A program made the translations under genes and the position numbers. The notes beneath the pieces were generated by a model. The model saw only the letters and a program-made list of their open reading frames with translations. It made no database searches and had not been told where the DNA came from. Positions 8,439 through 23,484 of a stretch of DNA of 27,082 bases are shown in pieces. How positions within the stretch are numbered: position 1 is the stretch's first letter; each line of letters opens with the position of its first letter. The stretch spans positions 1-27,082 of the IMG/VR virus record IMGVR_UViG_3300007511_000120. One strand, given 5' to 3'. This stretch comes from a virus.

Positions 8439-10919
8439 ATGCCAGATCAAAAGTTCTACACAAATGTTGTTTGTCTAGGTGATTTCATATTTGAAAGGGG
8501 TGTAAAGAATGGTCGCCCCTTTAATGCTAAACATGAATTCCTTCCTACATTATACGTTCCTACCAAAAATAAAACAGAATGGCGCACTTTAAATGGTAAT
8601 CCTGTTGCTCCTGTAACATGGGGATCTATTAAAGAAACCCGTGAATCTTTTAAAAAATATGAAAATGTTCAAAATATGGAAATTTATGGCCATACAAATT
8701 TTTCCTATTCTTTCTTATCAGAAGAATATCCAGAAGAACATATAGGCTATAACCTTGAACATATCAGTAAAATGTATATTGATATTGAGGTAGGATCTGA
8801 GAGTGGATTTCCAGATCCACAACTTGCTTCTGAAGAAATTACTGCAATTACTATTAAAATGAATGATAATATTGAAGTTTGGGGTTGTGGAGATTTTATT
8901 CATGGAGATGAAGTTCAATATAATCATTGTAAAAATGAAAAAGAATTATTAGAACAATTTGTGTTATTTTGGCAACAAAATTGTCCTCATGTAATTACTG
9001 GTTGGAATATTAAAATTTTTGATATTCCATATTTATGTAATCGTATTCGTCAAATATTGAGTGATGCCTGGGTCAAGAAACTTTCTCCTTGGGGATTTGT
9101 AAAATCTCAAACTATTTTTGGTATGGGCGGTAAGGAACTACAAGCATACGAGATTTATGGTGTATCTGAAATTGACTATTTAGAAGCATATAAAAAGTTC
9201 ACTTATATAAATCAAGAATCATATAGATTGGATCATGTTGCTTATGTAGAATTGGGAGAAAAGAAATTAGATTATTCTGAGGTGGCCACTCTTCATGAAT
9301 TATATAGAACTGATTATCAGAAATTCATAGAATACAATATTCAAGATGTGTTATTGGTAGATCGGCTTGAACAGAAGATGAAACTATTGGATATGATCAT
9401 GTCACTTGCATACTTATCCAAGTGTAATTTTTCTGATGTATTTGCTCAGACAAGAATGTGGGATTGTATTATTTTTAATCATCTTTTGAGAGAGAAAGTT
9501 GTAATTCCACAAAAGAAAAAAGAACAAAAGGGAGATGCTTATGAAGGTGCTTATGTAAAAGTTCCTCAAACTGGAAGGCATGAATGGATTGTGAGTTTTG
9601 ATTTGAATAGCTTGTATCCTCATTTAATTATGCAATATAATATTTCACCAGATACTATTCTTGGTAAGTGGCAAGATGAGATAGGGGTTGCGGGATTATT
9701 GAATAAAGAATATGATACTTCTCTTTGGAAAGAAAAAGATATAACGGTTACTCCAAATGGATCAGTATATCGTAGAGATTTTCAAGGATTTCTTCCAAAA
9801 CTGATGGAGAAGATGTATACTGATAGAGTCAAGTACAAGAAGATGATGTTGGCTGAACAGAAAAAGGGGAAGAACGCGGATTCTAATAAATTGGCTCAAT
9901 ATTTTAATATGCAATTCAATCTCAAGATTGCTCTTAATTCTGCATATGGTGCAATGGGAAATCAATGGTTTCGGTTTTATGATGAACGAAACGCAGAAGC
10001 AGTTTCTGTTGCTGGACAGTTATCTATTCAATGGGCCGAGAAAACAGTAAATGAATATCTTAATAAAACACTAGATACAGAAAATGTTGATTATATTGTT
10101 GCTTCCGATACTGACTCTTTATATGTTCGTCTTGATGATCTTGTTTCTAGAGTTGGTCTTACCGATAAAGAAAAGATCGTTAACTTCTTGGACAAATCCT
10201 GTGGAAGAATAGAAAATGTAATTGCAAAATGTTATGAAGAATTGGCAAAGTATGTAAATGCATATCAACAAAAAATGGTGATGAAGAGAGAAGTAATTGC
10301 TGATGTTGGTATTTGGACTGCAAAGAAACATTATATTTTAAATGTTCATGATTCTGAGGGTGTTCGATTTGAAGAACCTAAACTCAAGATTATGGGTATT
10401 GAAGCTATCAAGAGTTCTACACCAGAACCATGTAGAAAATCTCTAAAAGAGGTTTTTAATATTATTGTATCGGGTACTGAAGATGAGGTTATTGACTATA
10501 TTGAAACTTTCAAAGAGAAATTTTATAGTTTAAGAATGGAAGATGTAGCATTTCCAAGATCAGTCAAGGGGTTGAATAAGTATAAAGATTCATCCACGAT
10601 TTATCGGAAGTCAACTCCGATTCATGTAAAAGGATCTTTGATTTATAATCATATGTTATCAAACAAAAAACTATCTAAGAAATATCCAAGAATTCAAGAA
10701 GGCGAAAAGATCAAGTATGCATATTTGAAAGATCCAAATCCAGCAGGAGATAGAGTCATTTCGATATTGAATACTCTTCCTGATGAATTTGAATTGGAGA
10801 AATATATAGATTATGATACTCAATTTTCAAAGTCTTTTATTGAGCCTTTAAAAGGCGTATTAGATGTAATTGGGTGGGAAACAGAAAGAAAGTCTAGTTT
10901 GGAATCATTTTTTTCATAG
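8439..10919 (+). CDS. 43: family B DNA polymerase, gp43-like
   Basis: An 826-residue replicative polymerase with 3'-5' proofreading. Exonuclease motifs are YIDIE (Asp115, Glu117), GWNIKIFD (Asp195) and YNIQD (299-303). Polymerase motif A is DLNSLYP (388-394), B is KIALNSAYG (Lys496, Asn500, Tyr503-Gly504) and C is SDTDS (Asp557, Asp559). The length is close to that of marine T4-like gp43 and somewhat below T4's 898 residues. No stop, frameshift or intein is seen. The start context (GGTATAAATAAATG) has no Shine-Dalgarno sequence, and the N-terminal KFYTNV pattern agrees with related polymerases. Translation may be controlled by RegA or gp43 itself, as in T4. Confidence 0.98.
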   Translation: MPDQKFYTNVVCLGDFIFERGVKNGRPFNAKHEFLPTLYVPTKNKTEWRTLNGNPVAPVTWGSIKETRESFKKYENVQNMEIYGHTNFSYSFLSEEYPEEHIGYNLEHISKMYIDIEVGSESGFPDPQLASEEITAITIKMNDNIEVWGCGDFIHGDEVQYNHCKNEKELLEQFVLFWQQNCPHVITGWNIKIFDIPYLCNRIRQILSDAWVKKLSPWGFVKSQTIFGMGGKELQAYEIYGVSEIDYLEAYKKFTYINQESYRLDHVAYVELGEKKLDYSEVATLHELYRTDYQKFIEYNIQDVLLVDRLEQKMKLLDMIMSLAYLSKCNFSDVFAQTRMWDCIIFNHLLREKVVIPQKKKEQKGDAYEGAYVKVPQTGRHEWIVSFDLNSLYPHLIMQYNISPDTILGKWQDEIGVAGLLNKEYDTSLWKEKDITVTPNGSVYRRDFQGFLPKLMEKMYTDRVKYKKMMLAEQKKGKNADSNKLAQYFNMQFNLKIALNSAYGAMGNQWFRFYDERNAEAVSVAGQLSIQWAEKTVNEYLNKTLDTENVDYIVASDTDSLYVRLDDLVSRVGLTDKEKIVNFLDKSCGRIENVIAKCYEELAKYVNAYQQKMVMKREVIADVGIWTAKKHYILNVHDSEGVRFEEPKLKIMGIEAIKSSTPEPCRKSLKEVFNIIVSGTEDEVIDYIETFKEKFYSLRMEDVAFPRSVKGLNKYKDSSTIYRKSTPIHVKGSLIYNHMLSNKKLSKKYPRIQEGEKIKYAYLKDPNPAGDRVISILNTLPDEFELEKYIDYDTQFSKSFIEPLKGVLDVIGWETERKSSLESFFS

Positions 10920-14454: not shown

Positions 14455-16275
14455 ATGATTAAATCTTTTACAAATTATTCTGAACAAAAATTATTTTTAG
14501 ATGATCTAGTAGAATTTAGTATTCATGAACCAAAATATGGTGTTGGACAACAAGTAGTTGTAAAAACTAATAAACTTGATTCTATATCTGATTATTTGGG
14601 AATTAAGGTTGATGCTTCAACGATATTGACAAAAGCTGCACCAGATCCAAATGCTCCTGAAATATGGGTAGGAACAGGAGAAGGAGAAGAAGTATATCTT
14701 GAAACTGGTGGAAAAACATATCATTTGTTGGGTGCCGCATCTAGCCTTAAATCATATTTTAATGGTTATAAAGATACTCCTGGAATATCATGGAAAGCAG
14801 ATTCAATTGAAACAGGTCAATGTTTAGGGCTGTATATTGATGCAAATGGAATGTTAGAGAAGATAGGTCAGGCTGGGGGAACTCCATCTACAAGTGTTAC
14901 AGATTCAATAAAGAAAAAGATAACCGCTGCATTTCAAAATGGTCAAGATTGGGATATGGGTGGAGTAGGTAAAATTTCTGAAAAGTTAGACAAAATTAGT
15001 TTAGGTGATATGACTCAACTTTTGGGATTAGCCGCAGGAATGCAATTATATTGGGAAAAAATAGGAAAATCTAGAGTTGGTGGTACACCAAATATAATTC
15101 ATGGAAAAATTAAAGAGTATTATACTGCTGAAGAAGGAAATCCTGCAGTTGAAGTACGTGGTTCAAAAGAAAATACTGCAGATACAATTATTTCCAATGT
15201 AAGTGCTTCTGAACTAATTGCAGCAATGAAAGGATCACCAGTTGAATATGATAAGGGTGTTTGTTTTATAAAAGGAACAAAAATTAAATTTCTTCAAGTA
15301 TCATTAAAAAAGGCAAAGGGAGCAGCACAATTAGGTAAAATCACCTCAATGTTACAAACAAAATACAATTTACCAAAATATGAGGTAATGTTGCAAACTT
15401 TATTGGATGAGGGATATTTGGATGAAGGATTCAGAAGTTTTTTTGGTGGCGTTTGGAAAAAGTTATCAGGATTAGTAGATAAAATTAAAGGATGGGTAAA
15501 AGGATTGGGAAAGAAATTATCAAAGAAATTTGATAGAAAAGTTAAAAGTGATTTAGGTCAACTTCAAAGGGTATTTGATAAAATGCCAGGACCGAAAGTT
15601 AATCTAAAAGAAGCATTTGTATTTGATGAACAGGGGTTGATATGTGAAGGATTAAATGTAGAATTACAAAAATTAGATGTTCCTAAATTAAATGTGGTCA
15701 GACAAGGAATTGAGGATAGATTATTTGATTTTGCAAGATCTGCTAGAAATCCAGAATTTACATATAAGAAAACAGGAGGTTTAGGAAAAGGAAATCTACC
15801 AGTAGAAGATAGATATAAATTATTTTCAAATTATACAGGTGTTTATGTTTTTAATGAAGTAATTTCTGCTAATATGGGAAATATGGAAAAATTAAAAGAT
15901 GAAATGATAGCTATGCAGAAAGAAATGTTATTTGGAAAAACAACATTACCCGTATGGAAAGTATATGGTATTGGAGGGGGTGGAGATCCCTGGGAAGAAT
16001 TGGGTGGTGCTAAAGAATTTGAAGAAGGTAAACAAACTGCATTTGCAGGATTAATTGGTGCTATTGTAGGATTTCATGCAAATAGTCAAGGTGGAGATTA
16101 CTATGCACTTGAAAGTTCATTTTTATTTAATGTAGATCCAGAAGGACTTCCCACATATACATTAAATCGTATGGGAACAAATCAAGGAGGATCATCCTTT
16201 TCATTTGTATTTGAGGGATCGACAACTATTTCTAATAAGAAATTTATAGAAAAATATGGTAAGGCTAGTAAATAA
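14455..16275 (+). CDS. large late protein with basic amphipathic segment, candidate internal head protein
   Basis: A 606-residue protein of unknown family. The N-terminus MIKSFTNYSEQK resembles the F-x-x-F/Y-x-E capsid-targeting-like segments of neighbouring gene products. In the middle is a pair of L-D-E/G sites (317-320 and 322-325), then a Lys/Trp/Gly-rich amphipathic stretch (GVWKKLSGLVDKIKG and on, about 331-365), then an L-K-E/A site (384-387). These sites match the (L/I)xE rule of the T4 prohead protease. The N-terminal part is Gly/Thr-rich and beta-prone, and the C-terminal 200 residues look globular. A late promoter precedes it and the next gene overlaps its stop. Packaging is inference. 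Confidence 0.8.
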   Translation: MIKSFTNYSEQKLFLDDLVEFSIHEPKYGVGQQVVVKTNKLDSISDYLGIKVDASTILTKAAPDPNAPEIWVGTGEGEEVYLETGGKTYHLLGAASSLKSYFNGYKDTPGISWKADSIETGQCLGLYIDANGMLEKIGQAGGTPSTSVTDSIKKKITAAFQNGQDWDMGGVGKISEKLDKISLGDMTQLLGLAAGMQLYWEKIGKSRVGGTPNIIHGKIKEYYTAEEGNPAVEVRGSKENTADTIISNVSASELIAAMKGSPVEYDKGVCFIKGTKIKFLQVSLKKAKGAAQLGKITSMLQTKYNLPKYEVMLQTLLDEGYLDEGFRSFFGGVWKKLSGLVDKIKGWVKGLGKKLSKKFDRKVKSDLGQLQRVFDKMPGPKVNLKEAFVFDEQGLICEGLNVELQKLDVPKLNVVRQGIEDRLFDFARSARNPEFTYKKTGGLGKGNLPVEDRYKLFSNYTGVYVFNEVISANMGNMEKLKDEMIAMQKEMLFGKTTLPVWKVYGIGGGGDPWEELGGAKEFEEGKQTAFAGLIGAIVGFHANSQGGDYYALESSFLFNVDPEGLPTYTLNRMGTNQGGSSFSFVFEGSTTISNKKFIEKYGKASK

Positions 16276-17495
16276 TGTTTGCATTCTCTTCATACTTAAC
16301 TGAACAAAAGAATCTCCACATGGAGCATATCGAAGATGAGGTATTGAATGGTGGAGTAAATGGAACAAGAGCAGCAATAAACTTTCTTCAGGGTTTACGT
16401 GATATGCTCGCGGGTAATGCTTCATCCCCTGTAAATGTTACAGTTAAGTGGGACGGAGCCCCTGCAATATTTGCTGGTACTAATCCAGAAAATGGACAGT
16501 TTTTTGTAGGCACAAAAGGTGTATTTGCTAAGAATGCAAAAATAAATTATACTGAAGAAGATATTGATAGAAATCATAGTGGAGGATTAGCCTCTAAACT
16601 AAAAATAGCATTAAAAGAATTGTCTAAAGTAAATATTCAAGGTGTGCTTCAAGGGGATATGATGTATTCTTCAGAAGATATAGAAAAAAAGACAATAGAT
16701 GGTAAAAGTTATTTAACATTTCAACCGAATACTATAGTTTATGCGGTTCCGGAAAAATCTCAATTAGCTGCTAAGATCTTATCTTCTAATATGGGGATAG
16801 TATGGCACACTACTTATACTGGTGATACGATGGAAGATATGGTCGCGTCATTTGGGGTTGCTTCTGGGGCCTTCCGTGAAACTAGTTCAGTTTGGCAAGC
16901 AGATGCATCATTCAAAGATCAGTCTGGTACTGTGACAATGACTAAAGATGAAACTGATGAGATTACAGCAATATTGAGTGAAGCAGGAAAGTTGTTTAGA
17001 AGAATGGATTCTGGAACATTAACTATGATTGCAGAAGATCCAAAAACAGCAGAATTAATAAAAACCTTTAACAATACTAAAGTAAGGGCAGGTGAACCAA
17101 TAAAGAATGTAAAAAAACATACCGCAGAACTGATCGCATTTGTATATGATAGGCTGAAAAATGAGGTAAATAAGGTGAAGAGGGAAGCTTCTAAGAAAAA
17201 TAAACAAGATCAAATGGATAGATATGTTGGGTTTTTAAGGAGTAAGTCTAAGGAATTGGTTAAGATATTTGTCATGCAAAACATTCTTATTAAGGCAAAA
17301 CTTTTGATTCTAAAAAAATTACAAAGTATTAAGGGATTAACTAAGACATTTATAAGAACATCAACCGGATATAGAGTTACGGCACCAGAAGGTTTTGTGG
17401 CTATTGATACTTTAAAGGGGGGAGCAGTTAAGTTGGTAGATCGACTAGAATTTGCACACCAAAATTTCAACGCAGCAAAGAATTGGGATAAATAA
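16275..17495 (+). CDS. ligase-like nucleotidyltransferase-fold protein (DUF6267-type)
   Basis: A 406-residue protein resembling a family common in marine T4-like phages that I recall as DUF6267. VKWDGAPAIF (57-66) holds a K-x-D-G motif (Lys58, Asp60, Gly61) like the adenylated lysine motif of DNA and RNA ligases. A conserved-looking LHMEHIEDEVLNGG lies at 14-27 and a VLQGDMMYSSEDIE segment near 123-136 could match a ligase motif III region. The N-terminus FAFSSYLTE/Q (2-11) resembles a capsid-targeting sequence with an L-x-E cleavage site. A Lys-rich helical part lies around 285-325. Real ligase activity is unproven. Confidence 0.82.
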   Translation: MFAFSSYLTEQKNLHMEHIEDEVLNGGVNGTRAAINFLQGLRDMLAGNASSPVNVTVKWDGAPAIFAGTNPENGQFFVGTKGVFAKNAKINYTEEDIDRNHSGGLASKLKIALKELSKVNIQGVLQGDMMYSSEDIEKKTIDGKSYLTFQPNTIVYAVPEKSQLAAKILSSNMGIVWHTTYTGDTMEDMVASFGVASGAFRETSSVWQADASFKDQSGTVTMTKDETDEITAILSEAGKLFRRMDSGTLTMIAEDPKTAELIKTFNNTKVRAGEPIKNVKKHTAELIAFVYDRLKNEVNKVKREASKKNKQDQMDRYVGFLRSKSKELVKIFVMQNILIKAKLLILKKLQSIKGLTKTFIRTSTGYRVTAPEGFVAIDTLKGGAVKLVDRLEFAHQNFNAAKNWDK

Positions 17496-17788: not shown

Positions 17789-18580
17789 ATGAAAACTTTT
17801 AAACAACATATATCTGAAGCTCAAGCACTTTTTAAGACTGATAGCATGATATTTACCAACTTAGAAAGTCCAGCATTAATTCTTTCTCCATCTATGATAG
17901 AAAGAGTATTTGATCAAGAACGAATTGAGGCATGGCACGTTACAGATATAAATGGATTAAAAGGACTTCAACGAATAGAAGGTAAGAAATCATCTATATC
18001 AGTATTGACCGAAATAGAATCAGGTAAGATTAAGATATTTTCTATGGGAGTAGAAACGGATGGTGGTTATTGTGTTAAACTTGAAGGGAATTTACTTTTG
18101 TCCTCAGATATTGATGTATATTCAGAAAGATTAGAGGGGGGCCGAAGAGCTATTGCAGTCAGCGCTCAAGATTATCCTAGCTTATATAAAGACATGATGA
18201 AGATGATAAAAAGTATGTGGGATAAATTTGGGTTTGAACAATATACGGGTGATGAATATGTAACTGCTATGGATTTTAATAAATGGGGAATGGCACTTAA
18301 AGGAAAACAAAAAGCTCAGTTTATTAAAGAATATATTGATAATTCTGAAATTATATTAAAGAAGAACAAAAAGGCAAGAGAAGAATTGAGAAAAATGGGT
18401 AGACATAAATTTTCAACGTATAATGAAAGTGTAGTTAATCAAATTAAGATAAAAACTATATACGTAATTAATAATAATACGATAGAAAAATTTGGATCAC
18501 AGTATCAGGCCGCAAGAAAGTTATTTAAGAATGTTCTTGAAGTAACATCAAATCGTATGGGGGAGATCATAAGTAAATGA
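17789..18580 (+). CDS. candidate packaged internal protein with ADP-ribosyltransferase-like features
   Basis: A 263-residue protein starting MKTFKQHISEA, which matches the T4 internal-protein capsid-targeting sequence MKTYQEFIAEA at 7 of 11 positions, including the I-x-E/A cleavage site after residue 10. After this tag comes AWHVTDINGLKGLQRIEGKK (about 48-67) and SISVLT. The H-x-T then I-x-G then S-x-S/T pattern recalls the PARP/KptA/ART fold, where a His or Arg is followed by an S/T strand. No clear catalytic Glu is assigned. The C-terminal third is Lys-rich and helical. T4 packages an ART (Alt) in its head, which makes the idea attractive but unproven. Confidence 0.8.
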   Translation: MKTFKQHISEAQALFKTDSMIFTNLESPALILSPSMIERVFDQERIEAWHVTDINGLKGLQRIEGKKSSISVLTEIESGKIKIFSMGVETDGGYCVKLEGNLLLSSDIDVYSERLEGGRRAIAVSAQDYPSLYKDMMKMIKSMWDKFGFEQYTGDEYVTAMDFNKWGMALKGKQKAQFIKEYIDNSEIILKKNKKAREELRKMGRHKFSTYNESVVNQIKIKTIYVINNNTIEKFGSQYQAARKLFKNVLEVTSNRMGEIISK

Positions 18581-19620
18581 AAACAGTAGCATTTGTATTC
18601 GGAAGATTTAATCCACCAACAATAGGTCACGGGAAGTTATTAGATGCGTTAAAAGCAACTGCCCAAAGAGAGAGGGCAGATTATTATATATTTACTAGTC
18701 ATTCTCAAGATGCAAAGAAGAATCCTTTATCTAAGAATACTATTTTTCGATTTATGTCAAAAATGTTTCCTCAATTTAGGAAAGCGTTTAAACACGAATA
18801 TAAAGGTGAAATAAGGAATGTTTTTGATATTGCTAATAATTTTCATGGAGAATATGATAAACTTATCATGGTTGTAGGTAGCGATAGAGTTTCAGACTTT
18901 GAGCGTATACTAAATAAGTATAATGGAATAAAGGCTCAACACGGATTTTATGATTTTAAAGAAATTCAAGTAGTTAGTGCTGGTGATCGTGATCCAGATG
19001 CAGAAGGTGTAACTGGAATGTCAGCCTCTAAAATGAGGGCAGCAGCAGTCAAAGGAGACTTTGATTCTTTTAAATTGGGAGTTCCAGCAATTATGAGTGA
19101 TAAAGACACAAAGGATATGATGAATGCAGTAAGATTAGGTTTAAAATTGGATGCTATAAGAGAAGGTATGAAACGTAGAAGAGGAATACAGGAACCCGTT
19201 GTAATTGAAGATAATTCAAGAACAATAGAACCAACAGAATTAACATGGCAAGGATATGAAACAATAAGTTTATCTACTTGTGCTGAAGCCTTTGATTTAT
19301 TTGATGAGATTGTTAATAGTATTGGATTTTCTACTTTTACTACACCAGAACAAGCATACCTCAAAGAATCATTGATTCTAGTTGATAAGTGTCTTACAAT
19401 TGCTAATTCACCTAAAGAAATCATAGAAGAAAAAGATGTTCAAGATTATTTAAAATTTTCACAGAAAGCAATAAAATTACTAGAGTCTGTTGGAAAACGA
19501 ATAGGAATTCCATTTGATTATTCGTTTTTGAATAAACTTCAAGTTGAGGTTATTGAAGAAGAAATTAAACCAAAGAAATCTTTCACACAATTTATTGGAG
19601 AAGTACATGGCAACCGATAA
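18577..19620 (+). CDS. cytidylyltransferase-fold nucleotidyltransferase with targeting-like tail
   Basis: A 347-residue protein. The N-terminal domain (1-190) is a cytidylyltransferase-like enzyme: FGRFNPPTIGHGKLL (8-22) holds the T/H-x-G-H active-site motif, VVGSDRVSDFE (99-109) fits the GxD region, and MSASKMRAA (148-156) is the ISxTxxR-type nucleotide-binding loop. Such enzymes make NAD, coenzyme A or CDP-lipid intermediates; NMN adenylyltransferase is the nearest guess. The C-terminal domain (about 210-325) is helical and unknown. The last residues KSFTQFIGEVHGNR contain a capsid-targeting-like F-x-x-F-I-x-E segment. It has an ATGA start and overlaps the next gene by 14 nt. Confidence 0.9.
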   Translation: MKTVAFVFGRFNPPTIGHGKLLDALKATAQRERADYYIFTSHSQDAKKNPLSKNTIFRFMSKMFPQFRKAFKHEYKGEIRNVFDIANNFHGEYDKLIMVVGSDRVSDFERILNKYNGIKAQHGFYDFKEIQVVSAGDRDPDAEGVTGMSASKMRAAAVKGDFDSFKLGVPAIMSDKDTKDMMNAVRLGLKLDAIREGMKRRRGIQEPVVIEDNSRTIEPTELTWQGYETISLSTCAEAFDLFDEIVNSIGFSTFTTPEQAYLKESLILVDKCLTIANSPKEIIEEKDVQDYLKFSQKAIKLLESVGKRIGIPFDYSFLNKLQVEVIEEEIKPKKSFTQFIGEVHGNR

Positions 19621-21988
19621 TTTACTAAGCGTAATCGCCAGTCTTGTCAAGAGAGAAGGTCGGATTGCTAAAGAGGAATCCAAAAAGGCGAAGGACGCAG
19701 TAAAGGCAGCAAAAGAGGCTGAAGAAGAGGACGAAGATGAAGATCCTGTAGGTGATGGTGAATCTGATGCAAAGGCAGCAGAAAAAGAACCAGCACCAAA
19801 ACCAGATGATGAGGAAGAACCAGAAGACGATAAAACAGGTGAAGGTGATACTAAACCTACTGGTCCTGATCCTGCATTAGTAGCACAAGTTGCTAGAATC
19901 GTCAAACAAGAAATTGAAGACGAAAAGAAAGAAAAGAAGGAAAAGGAAATTAAAATTTCTGGTAAAAAAGAAAAAATTGACACTAAACCAACAATAAAAC
20001 AAGAGGATAAAATGAAAGGTCGAATGACATTTAAAGAAGCAATTGCGGCTTCCATATTAGGAACTGATAAGATATATGAAGGATATGAAGGAGCAGTACT
20101 TAACATTCTTGATACAGCAGGCATTAGAGGGCCGTTGGGTTATGAACCATTCTTTGAAAATGGTAAACTTTATGTTGAAAGAGGATCAGAAAAAGAAGCA
20201 AAACAAGCTCTTAAAGACGATGGTTCTATCAGAAGAATACCTAAAATTGTTGGTGAAGAATTGGCACCAGAAGAATATCTTCAAATGGAAGCAGTTTCAG
20301 TTGATGGTAGATTAAAAGGTTTCAAAGAAGCACTCAAGAGATTGACTTATGAAAAAATTAAGGCAATGAAAGAGAAGGAAGAAGTTGAGATTGATGAAAC
20401 TATTGAAGTTCCGGAGGGATTGAGTAAAGAAGATGCAGCAGCATTTATGGCAGCAGCATCTGCGGCCAAAAGAGCCGGTAAAAAGAAATTTAAACTTGGT
20501 GGAAAAGAATATCCTGTTACTATCAAGGTAAATATTCCTTCAAAAAAAAATGAAGATTTAACTACCGAGGAAATTGCGGTAGATGAAGCAAGGAAAACTG
20601 CAAAAGATATTGGAATGGAATGTCAAGAATGTGGTAAGAAATTTCGTGCTAAACTTTCTACATTACAATATGGAAAGACCAAATGTCCAAAATGTAAGAG
20701 TACAGATATAGATTTTTCATATGGTGAATCGGTTGAGGTCGAAGAAGCACGATCAAAAGAAGATGAGTTGGAATTAGCAAAAGTGATTGCAGCGTGGAAG
20801 AAAGCAGGAGGAAAAATTAAAAAATTACCACCTGGCAGAAAGTTCCAAAGTTTGTTTGGAAAAGGATATAAACCTAAGAAACAACCACGCCAAGCAGAAG
20901 AAGTTGAGATCCAAGAACATTGTGGAGAATGTGAATTTGGATTAGAAGAAAGAGCAAAATATGATCTTTATCACAAGACATTTTCTGCAGCAATGCAACA
21001 TGCATATGATGTGGCCAAGAAACAGGGTTATATTGTAGATCCAGATGAAATCGACAATAAGGTTGCAACAGGACCAAGAAAACCATCAAGTGGTAAGACT
21101 AACCGATACATTTTGGGAACAGATAAGAAGAAAAATCTTCATGTCCAAGTTGCAAACTTAGATAACAAACGATACGAACTCAATATGTACATTGAGGGAG
21201 TTGAGATTGACGAGAAGTTCAAAAAAGGTAAGTATACACTTAGAGATGGAAACACCGGTAAGGTGATTGCAACATATAATTCTGGTGCACAAGCTGCAAA
21301 AGAAATGCATAAACTTTTGGATAGTGGTAAATATGATGAATTAGAAGTAAAAATGGAAGAAGTTGAACCCATCGAAGAGGCAGACCGAAAAGCATTAAAG
21401 AATTTTTCTAAAGAACTTTCTGATTATGCAAGAAAGAGTGGTGGAATCGATAAAGCAGATTTTGAGAAGGTTGCAAAGATTGCAGATTCTGGTAAAATGC
21501 CAAAGAAGAATGATATTCCAGATGATACAGATCCAAGAGATTTTGTATTAATGATGATGATGAAATATTTTGAAAAGAGAGAATTGAAAATGTATAAAGG
21601 ATTATCACCAACATTCGATTCTTGGTTAAATGAGTCTGTTCAAATGACAAAAGTGAGAAGGCTTAGAACTAAGATAAATGAAGCATTAGATAGAGAAGCA
21701 GTCCGTGAATTACAATTATATATTGAAAATGATTCAGACTTATACAGAAGACAGATAATACCAATAGTTAAAAACATTCAAAGAAAAATGAAGTCTGGTA
21801 AGTATGACCATACAAAAGCACCTAAACTTTGGATGTATTTAGTAGATAACGGTGCAAAGAAATATGTGAAAGAATTTGGTGGGGATGTGAAGTCCATGTT
21901 CCCTAAAGATGTTCGACATTCAGTTGCAGTTAATATGGCAAATGAATACCGTGCAGAAATAGAATCTCAAGGTGGAGAAATGTACTAA
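19607..21988 (+). CDS. candidate prohead-processed polyprotein with zinc ribbon
   Basis: A 793-residue late protein from ATG 19607 with TTGGAG upstream; a reading from 19544 lies inside the previous gene. The first 135 residues are acidic Lys/Glu/Ala low complexity. Next come MKGRMTFKEAIAASIL (136 on), a zinc ribbon C-x2-C...C-x2-C (Cys339, Cys342, Cys360, Cys363), a domain starting KYDLYHKTF (about 451-530), a short beta domain after KGKYTLRDGNTGK, and a helical C-terminal domain (693-793). Domains are separated by recurring linkers of the form E-E-V-E-I-x-E. Each linker ends in an (I/L/V)xE site like those cut by T4 gp21, for example 262-264, 435-437, 534-536, 589-591 and 690-692. Confidence 0.85.
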   Translation: MATDNLLSVIASLVKREGRIAKEESKKAKDAVKAAKEAEEEDEDEDPVGDGESDAKAAEKEPAPKPDDEEEPEDDKTGEGDTKPTGPDPALVAQVARIVKQEIEDEKKEKKEKEIKISGKKEKIDTKPTIKQEDKMKGRMTFKEAIAASILGTDKIYEGYEGAVLNILDTAGIRGPLGYEPFFENGKLYVERGSEKEAKQALKDDGSIRRIPKIVGEELAPEEYLQMEAVSVDGRLKGFKEALKRLTYEKIKAMKEKEEVEIDETIEVPEGLSKEDAAAFMAAASAAKRAGKKKFKLGGKEYPVTIKVNIPSKKNEDLTTEEIAVDEARKTAKDIGMECQECGKKFRAKLSTLQYGKTKCPKCKSTDIDFSYGESVEVEEARSKEDELELAKVIAAWKKAGGKIKKLPPGRKFQSLFGKGYKPKKQPRQAEEVEIQEHCGECEFGLEERAKYDLYHKTFSAAMQHAYDVAKKQGYIVDPDEIDNKVATGPRKPSSGKTNRYILGTDKKKNLHVQVANLDNKRYELNMYIEGVEIDEKFKKGKYTLRDGNTGKVIATYNSGAQAAKEMHKLLDSGKYDELEVKMEEVEPIEEADRKALKNFSKELSDYARKSGGIDKADFEKVAKIADSGKMPKKNDIPDDTDPRDFVLMMMMKYFEKRELKMYKGLSPTFDSWLNESVQMTKVRRLRTKINEALDREAVRELQLYIENDSDLYRRQIIPIVKNIQRKMKSGKYDHTKAPKLWMYLVDNGAKKYVKEFGGDVKSMFPKDVRHSVAVNMANEYRAEIESQGGEMY
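20003..20014 (+). other. internal in-frame ribosome binding site and ATG
   Basis: GAGG at 20003-20006 lies 5 nt before ATG 20012, in frame with the 793-residue protein (residue 136, MKGRMTFKEA). Translation from here would give a form without the acidic low-complexity head. It may also be a relic of a separate gene. Confidence 0.4.
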
Positions 21989-23102: not shown

Positions 23103-23127
23103 TAATTAATAATATTTGGAGAATATA

Positions 23128-23484
23128 ATGGCTGACTTAGGTAAAATGTCTAAGAAGCAACTTGAAACCTATGCCAGAGAAGAGTTGGGTATTGAGTTAG
23201 ATCGAAGGCATACTAAAAAACAGTTAATTTCAACTGTTGAAAAACATTTAAAGGCGAAGAAGTCTCAACCTAAAGTTGTAAAAGTTGTAGAACCGCCTCC
23301 GGCACCTAAAAAGTCGGAGGCAAAGCCTTCTGAAGTTAGAAAAATTATACAAGAATTGTCTCTTCTTAGAAGAGATGCGTCCATAGTTTGGGATGAAATC
23401 AAAGATGATACACGTTCCGATGAGGATATAAGAGAACTTTGTCGTGCCAAAGGTTTTGGTACTTTAGTACAAAATATCTCTTAA
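23128..23484 (+). CDS. SAP/LEM-like domain protein
   Basis: A 118-residue protein from ATG 23128 behind TTGGAG. MSKKQLETYAREELGIELDRR and the following TKKQLISTVEKHL (7-43) have the helix-extended-helix pattern of SAP, HeH or Rho-N domains, which often bind DNA or RNA. A Lys/Pro-rich linker (44-70, PKVVKVVEPPPAPKK) leads to a second helical domain (71-118) rich in Arg and Asp. It lies among late virion-type genes, so it may touch DNA in the head. Confidence 0.8.
   Translation: MADLGKMSKKQLETYAREELGIELDRRHTKKQLISTVEKHLKAKKSQPKVVKVVEPPPAPKKSEAKPSEVRKIIQELSLLRRDASIVWDEIKDDTRSDEDIRELCRAKGFGTLVQNIS

Follow-up and report, generated by a model that had tools for sequence, protein, structure and literature searches.

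The prohead protease of phage T4, gp21, cleaves after L/I-x-E, and T4 genetics assigns residues 4 and 7 of the capsid-targeting sequence (CTS) to targeting and residues 8 and 10 to processing (PMC9026906). Asp at position 10 of the T4 CTS stops processing. Each precursor of the T4 proteins IPI, IPII, IPIII and Alt delivers a single cargo and has terminal propeptides. Here we analyze a 793-aa open reading frame (ORF) at 19607-21988 of IMG/VR record IMGVR_UViG_3300007511_000120, a viral stretch of 27,082 nucleotides that we call the window. The phage is a marine relative of T4, and the product is probably a modular polyprotein of internal-head cargo that is directed to the prohead core and cleaved by a gp21-type protease. 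The system resembles IPI-III and Alt in T4-type CTS, hydrophobic-x-Glu cleavage motif, diverse cargo and plastic loci, but the window protein combines several modules with internal sites and has no N-terminal CTS.

Precursors cut more than once are also known. T4 gp22, gp67 and gp68 are single precursors with several LxE cuts, and gp67 has an acidic tail, but their fragments mostly leave the head and do not represent conserved domains that have been shuffled. The prohead protease of SPN3US and phiKZ cuts long propeptides of head proteins at several motif sites; in SPN3US, 13 of 14 sites remove N-terminal propeptides and the other removes the protease's own C-terminal one (PMC10052503), and release of several cargo domains is not reported for these phages. 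Polyvalent proteins are multidomain and thought to be packaged and injected, and their authors draw a comparison with eukaryotic virus polyproteins (Iyer et al. 2017, PMC5512222). Their release is ascribed to embedded peptidase domains, whereas we propose that the phage prohead protease acts in trans on the window protein, in which Pfam and PHROGs reveal no peptidase or other enzyme domain, including the effector enzymes by which polyvalent proteins are recognized. Cyanophage T4-GC190 and its adjoining ORFs (S-SM1, S-SM2 and S-PM2) occupy the equivalent locus, with a CTS-like N-terminus in S-SM1 and S-SM2, but the multi-module ORFs downstream have few modules in common with the window ORF. T4 processing chemistry, targeting and precursors cut into peptides (gp22 and gp67) are already known. 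The open-access literature that we searched gives no account of polyproteins that combine several cargoes as shuffled modules, nor of prohead-protease polyproteins in T4-like phages or cyanophages.

A modular ORF with recurrent acidic linkers

ORF 19607-21988 is a genuine gene, open in three assemblies: the window and two independent metagenome contigs (L001 and L002) at 99-100% identity. The original prediction, made from the window sequence, placed nine prohead-protease-like sites between small domains, and all nine motifs are present in the translation, at residues 264 (IDE), 327 (VDE), 380 (VEE), 437 (IQE), 448 (LEE), 536 (IDE), 591 (IEE), 676 (LNE) and 692 (INE). The zinc ribbon and the KYDLYHKTF, beta and helical domains that it described are borne out by Pfam and AlphaFold2. 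The features are as follows, with a slash at the candidate cut.

19607..21988, + strand: polyprotein ORF, 793 aa, ATG start, GGAG ribosome-binding site a few nucleotides upstream
19607..20398, + strand: residues 1-264, N-terminal module, ends EEVEIDE/T (homologues in L003, L161, L040, L004, L008 and L085)
20399..20587, + strand: residues 265-327, module B (LSKEDAAAFMAAASAAKRAGKKKFKLGGKEYPVTIK), ends EEIAVDE/A
20588..20746, + strand: residues 328-380, zinc-ribbon module (CQECGKKF...CPKC), ends ESVEVEE/A
20747..20917, + strand: module D, ends EEVEIQE/H
20918..20950, + strand: residues 438-448, HCGECEFGLEE, a spacer bounded by two candidate sites, which also precedes other modules (L020 and L164)
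20951..21214, + strand: residues 449-536, KYDLYHKTF module, predicted beta-alpha-alpha-beta-beta-beta, ends EGVEIDE/K
21215..21379, + strand: residues 537-591, module F ([FW]KKGKYTLRDGNTGKVIATYNSG), ends VEPIEE/A
21380..21634, + strand: residues 592-676, helical module G, ends FDSWLNE/S
21683..21985, + strand: residues 693-793, helical module H, begins after TKINE/ALDR... (standalone homologues MKNFKTFIE/AVDK...)

The N-terminal module comprises a helix (4-39), an acidic low-complexity stretch (about 41-85), a folded alpha/beta region (about 160-217) and a second helix (237-256). The zinc ribbon gives weak HypA/zinc-ribbon Pfam matches at 334-380, and the region of module F holds a beta-rich domain at 541-586. 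Pfam and PHROG scans put names on few modules, and tblastn against cultured phages with the zinc ribbon, module B, module H and an MKTFKQLIAE leader as queries gave no match.

The sequence shows small conserved modules joined by hydrophobic-x-Glu/(Ala/Gly/Lys) linkers. The recurrent acidic linker that drew attention to this ORF is real: in its extended form, E[EDGSKT][VITAM][EDQKN][ILVM]xE, it occurs five times (EEVEIDE, ETIEVPE, ESVEVEE, EEVEIQE and EGVEIDE) against 0.11 expected from shuffled sequences (0/2000 shuffles), and all five copies lie in the polyprotein ORF; the 33 further ORFs called in the window lack it. Genome-wide, the strict linker motif shows no excess in the relative G001 (2 versus 2.3) and a slight one in Melnitz (5 versus 1.9), so such elaborate linkers are a trait of some lineages. 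Candidate linkers in cultured phages are EEIEIDE (gene 20 of Melnitz EXVC044M), EEVELDE (gene 21 of Melnitz) and EVENVEE (SSM1_191).

Candidate sites at the boundaries of shuffled modules

Searches of IMG/VR with the individual modules retrieved many marine T4-like contigs in which the modules are rearranged and have different partners; the longest of these proteins reaches 1442 aa. The KYDLYHKTF module is found at at least 180 loci in IMG/VR and in about 60 contexts in marine T4-like phages, and among the cultured phages in the collection only in Melnitz methylophages. Within the 12 residues upstream of it, [LIV]xE occurs in 78% of 41 distinct contexts compared to 24% of shuffled windows (0/2000). 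Homologues whose linkers lack xE would have refuted the original prediction, and on this check it mostly stands: the larger part of the exceptions belongs to one family of proteins of about 200 aa. The next 12 residues further upstream show no excess (20% versus 16%), and the motif is at 0% in the two segments tested inside the module. Of 45 contexts, 44 have L, I, V or M at P3 of the nearest Glu upstream of the module (background 26%) and 25 have Ala at P1' (background 8%); P2 is frequently Asp. Control motifs ([LIV].D, [LIV].K, [AGS].E, Ser at P1, or a charged or polar P3) are not enriched. The junctions show the signature of gp21 substrates, L/I-x-E directly ahead of the cut and frequently Ala after it; V at P3, common at junctions here, falls outside the strict T4 L/I consensus. 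The pattern extends to 85 related proteins, where [LIV]xE coincides with the start of an internal homology in 43% of cases and with the end in 61%, as opposed to 20% and 26% for rotated sites (0/500).

AlphaFold2 modeling of the 793-aa protein from a 36-row alignment (pTM 0.29) gives folded pieces at about 160-217, 274-310, 450-531, 541-586 and 690-787 with low-confidence stretches between them. Segments with pLDDT below 50 hold six of the nine sites (327, 380, 437, 448, 536 and 591) and none of the five other [LIV]xE motifs that were not listed originally (158, 217, 270, 701 and 756), which lie in regions of better confidence. The KYDLYHKTF module is modeled at a mean pLDDT of 72, and fold searches with it and with the whole model against the PDB and BFVD gave no significant match. 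The fourth-ranked BFVD match is called an "internal head protein", but we made no use of it at E=0.07.

Equivalence with capsid-targeting sequences

The modules also exist elsewhere as separate ORFs in which a T4-type CTS ends at the equivalent residue. T4 ipII and ipIII, read from AF158101, start MKTYQEFIAE/A, and we liken to this the marine forms MKTFKQLIAE/V, MKSFKQIRE/A and MKNFKTFIE/A. When N-terminal, the KYDLYHKTF module reads MKSFKQIRE/AKSSSG-YDLYH (L114, L122 and L124), and when internal, ESVELEE/AKSSSG-YELYH. Module H reads MKNFKTFIE/AVDKDMVIELKLYIEN in L012 and others and TKINE/ALDREAVRELQLYIEN in the window, and module D has the leader MKSFNEFLE/D in L162. Standalone homologues of modules E (KYDLYHKTF), H and D carry the CTS, as do some polyprotein relatives. 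Across all CTS-like ORFs in the fetched loci, internal homologues of their domains have hydrophobic-x-Glu at the junction in 156 of 206 cases, versus 51 at random (maximum 71 in 500 trials). Most internal linkers retain the processing residues (P3 and P1) but not the targeting residues.

In some proteins the CTS is retained within a fusion, as in L048 (SPLKSFNQLTE/GWKKGKYK). L010 encodes, at 9271-10089, a sigma-70 region 4 domain (Pfam E 1e-14) with a CTS, after which the frame continues into a second CTS (MQNFKTFIE/A) and module H; separate initiation at this internal Met is possible, because GAGG precedes it. CTS-like N-termini defined by a loose pattern are in modest excess genome-wide (7 versus 3.2 in G001, 8 versus 2.8 in Melnitz, 2 versus 0.8 in the window), and because the excess is modest we do not take it as proof.

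HAD-like proteins (DMDGVLADF) with CTS-like starts are encoded in L011 (3947, MKSFKTFVTE) and L064 (3173, MKKFKEFILE), which suggests, from their N-termini, packaged enzymes in related phages.

Proposed processing and alternative explanations

In the pathway that we favor, the precursor would be assembled into the prohead core, the gp21-type protease of the phage would cleave the linkers during head maturation, and about seven or eight small proteins would stay in the capsid alongside the DNA, to pass with it into the host like T4 IPI-III and Alt. Such a gene would have evolved by fusion of separately targeted cargo proteins, and one targeting event would serve many cargoes, since the linkers keep the processing residues and drop the targeting ones. 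The polyprotein would work like the T4 internal proteins, but we do not class it as one because it has no N-terminal CTS.

Several points weigh against this pathway. Cleavage, capsid residence and ejection are what we infer for the window polyprotein. It starts MATDNLLSVIAS (MATDNLLSVIASLVKREG), without the N-terminal CTS of about ten residues, and entry into the prohead core is the main gap in the pathway; the N-terminal helix or the acidic stretch might serve for it, and the N-terminal module may be a core-binding leader. No gp21 is seen in the window, a 27-kb fragment; complete relatives G001 and Melnitz encode a Peptidase_S77 (gp21-type) protease, and their gp23 has VFMTE/AA or FLSE/AA at the expected site. 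Because the protein is 12% Glu, the bare motif is at chance level (14 [LIV]xE versus 16.3 in shuffles; 8 [LI]xE versus 11.2); we rejected these counts as evidence, and the number of sites means nothing alone. The junction counts overstate independence, because contexts share ancestry. In the model, sites 676 and 692 fall within a predicted long helix and 264 lies outside the low-confidence segments, and the model as a whole is supporting evidence only, because the alignment is partly misplaced in N-terminal fragments. The exceptional family of about 200 aa has the KYDLYHKTF module at its C terminus with NAAKSATG upstream and no site. Sites 448, 676, 692 and 264 are less secure than the rest, even though comparative support is strongest for 692. 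The idea that prohead-protease-type sites mark module boundaries holds in each comparative test made, at the KYDLYHKTF junction, at the boundaries in the 85 proteins and in the CTS equivalence; the nine sites are not all equally credible.

The exceptional family (L111, L127, L101 and similar) starts MKRWSEVSPYSGLEE.

The polyprotein could instead be a scaffold-type substrate like T4 gp22, gp67 and gp68, a core component whose cleavage mainly frees space and most of whose fragments exit the head. T4 gp22 is rich in LxE, gp67 is annotated as a precursor to internal peptides, and the N-terminal region of the polyprotein has an acidic low-complexity stretch. However, its modules are conserved folded domains (the zinc ribbon and the alpha/beta KYDLYHKTF domain) that also occur as separate CTS-bearing ORFs, unlike a disposable scaffold, and [LIV]xE stands at module boundaries rather than being spread throughout, so we consider a scaffold role unlikely. 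Slightly less likely still is an uncut multidomain virion or host-takeover protein, resembling the many-domain polyvalent proteins known in phages (PMC5512222), in which acidic EEVELDE stretches are flexible linkers derived from fused CTS-bearing genes. The chance-level [LIV]xE count and the homologues without a site agree with it, but the P3 and P1' preferences fit gp21-type cleavage beyond mere acidity, relics should retain the targeting residues too whereas most linkers retain P3 and P1 only, and the polyprotein has no recognizable peptidase domain. A third reading, in which the protein is early, non-structural and not packaged and its linkers play no part in proteolysis, is very improbable: the ORF lies among replication genes (gp41 upstream; DNA polymerase and UvsX among the neighbors) and outside the head gene cluster, but the equivalent S-SM1 locus encodes a virion protein shown by mass spectrometry (PMC3037559), and several window neighbors and relatives have CTS-like N-termini.

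Possible cargo functions

The chances are about even that marine T4-like phages supply virion cargo as polyproteins, with shuffled cassettes of small host-takeover domains (among them zinc ribbons and RNAP-binding peptides like SutA) made as one chain, brought in by a single targeting, freed in the capsid by the prohead protease and ejected jointly. The top PDB match of the module D profile is SutA (E=0.005), and 13 of 16 module D family members match PF20661, the SutA RNAP-binding domain, at E<=0.1 (best 4e-6), under the curated cut-off of 29.3 bits in the sequences with scores shown (maximum 27.9 bits); the window copy alone gives E=0.096. The target of this domain in SutA is the RNAP beta protrusion (PMC9300723). 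The zinc ribbon adjoins the SutA-like module. This is a hint, to be taken as a lead, that host transcription may be taken over early in infection, in the manner of T4 Alt.

Polyprotein economy is known mainly from eukaryotic RNA viruses. If the favored pathway is true, tailed phages use it as well, with the head protease as processing enzyme, and predicted sites would divide the large hypothetical proteins encoded at this locus of marine T4-like phages into the mature units of cargo. Their functions would become tractable, with SutA-like RNAP binders and a relative's CTS-tagged sigma-70 region 4 as candidate injected effectors. It would also provide a scheme, taken from nature, by which one targeting signal brings several proteins into T4-type capsids.

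Genomic neighborhood

The window phage is T4-like, with a DNA polymerase, UvsX and a gp41-type helicase encoded upstream of the polyprotein ORF; the best matches of the polymerase are cyanophages, at about 52% identity. The following neighbors have CTS-like termini.

16275..17495, + strand: DUF6267 protein, starts MFAFSSYLTE/Q
17789..18580, + strand: neighbor ORF, starts MKTFKQHISE/A
18577..19620, + strand: cytidylyltransferase-like protein, overlaps the polyprotein start, C-terminal KKSFTQFIGE/VHGNR

In cultured cyanophages the equivalent locus runs gp41, GC71/DUF6267-like, cytidylyltransferase T4-GC190, multi-module ORFs and gp61. The S-SM1 T4-GC190, an orthologue of the window cytidylyltransferase, starts MKKFSAFLNE/A, and mass spectrometry of purified virions of S-SM1 detected both it and gp21 (PMC3037559). 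This is the sole experimental anchor, and it concerns the neighbor of the polyprotein, not the polyprotein itself.

Among relatives of the cytidylyltransferase, the one in L018 ends RKTFTQFSGEMYGL, and others have an N-terminal CTS (MKTYRKFIIE/A in L015 and MKSFRQFISE/A in L013). A single 764-aa profile, PHROG 455, spans both DUF6267 and cytidylyltransferase, which suggests that some phages have a fusion of these two cargo-like genes. A 122-aa protein encoded at 23116-23484 has weak PHROG matches to the T4 prohead protease inhibitor Inh (E 2e-5), a likeness that may be a shared helical motif only, because direct comparison with T4 Inh aligns 46 residues. The ORF at 17789-18580 belongs to a family with a [VA]WHVTD/VFHxTDxxG motif (here the slash separates alternatives), of which two copies in L018 (15627-16481 and 17665-18555) adjoin the cargo cluster; CTS-like starts are present on the copy in the window and on one of the two in L018.

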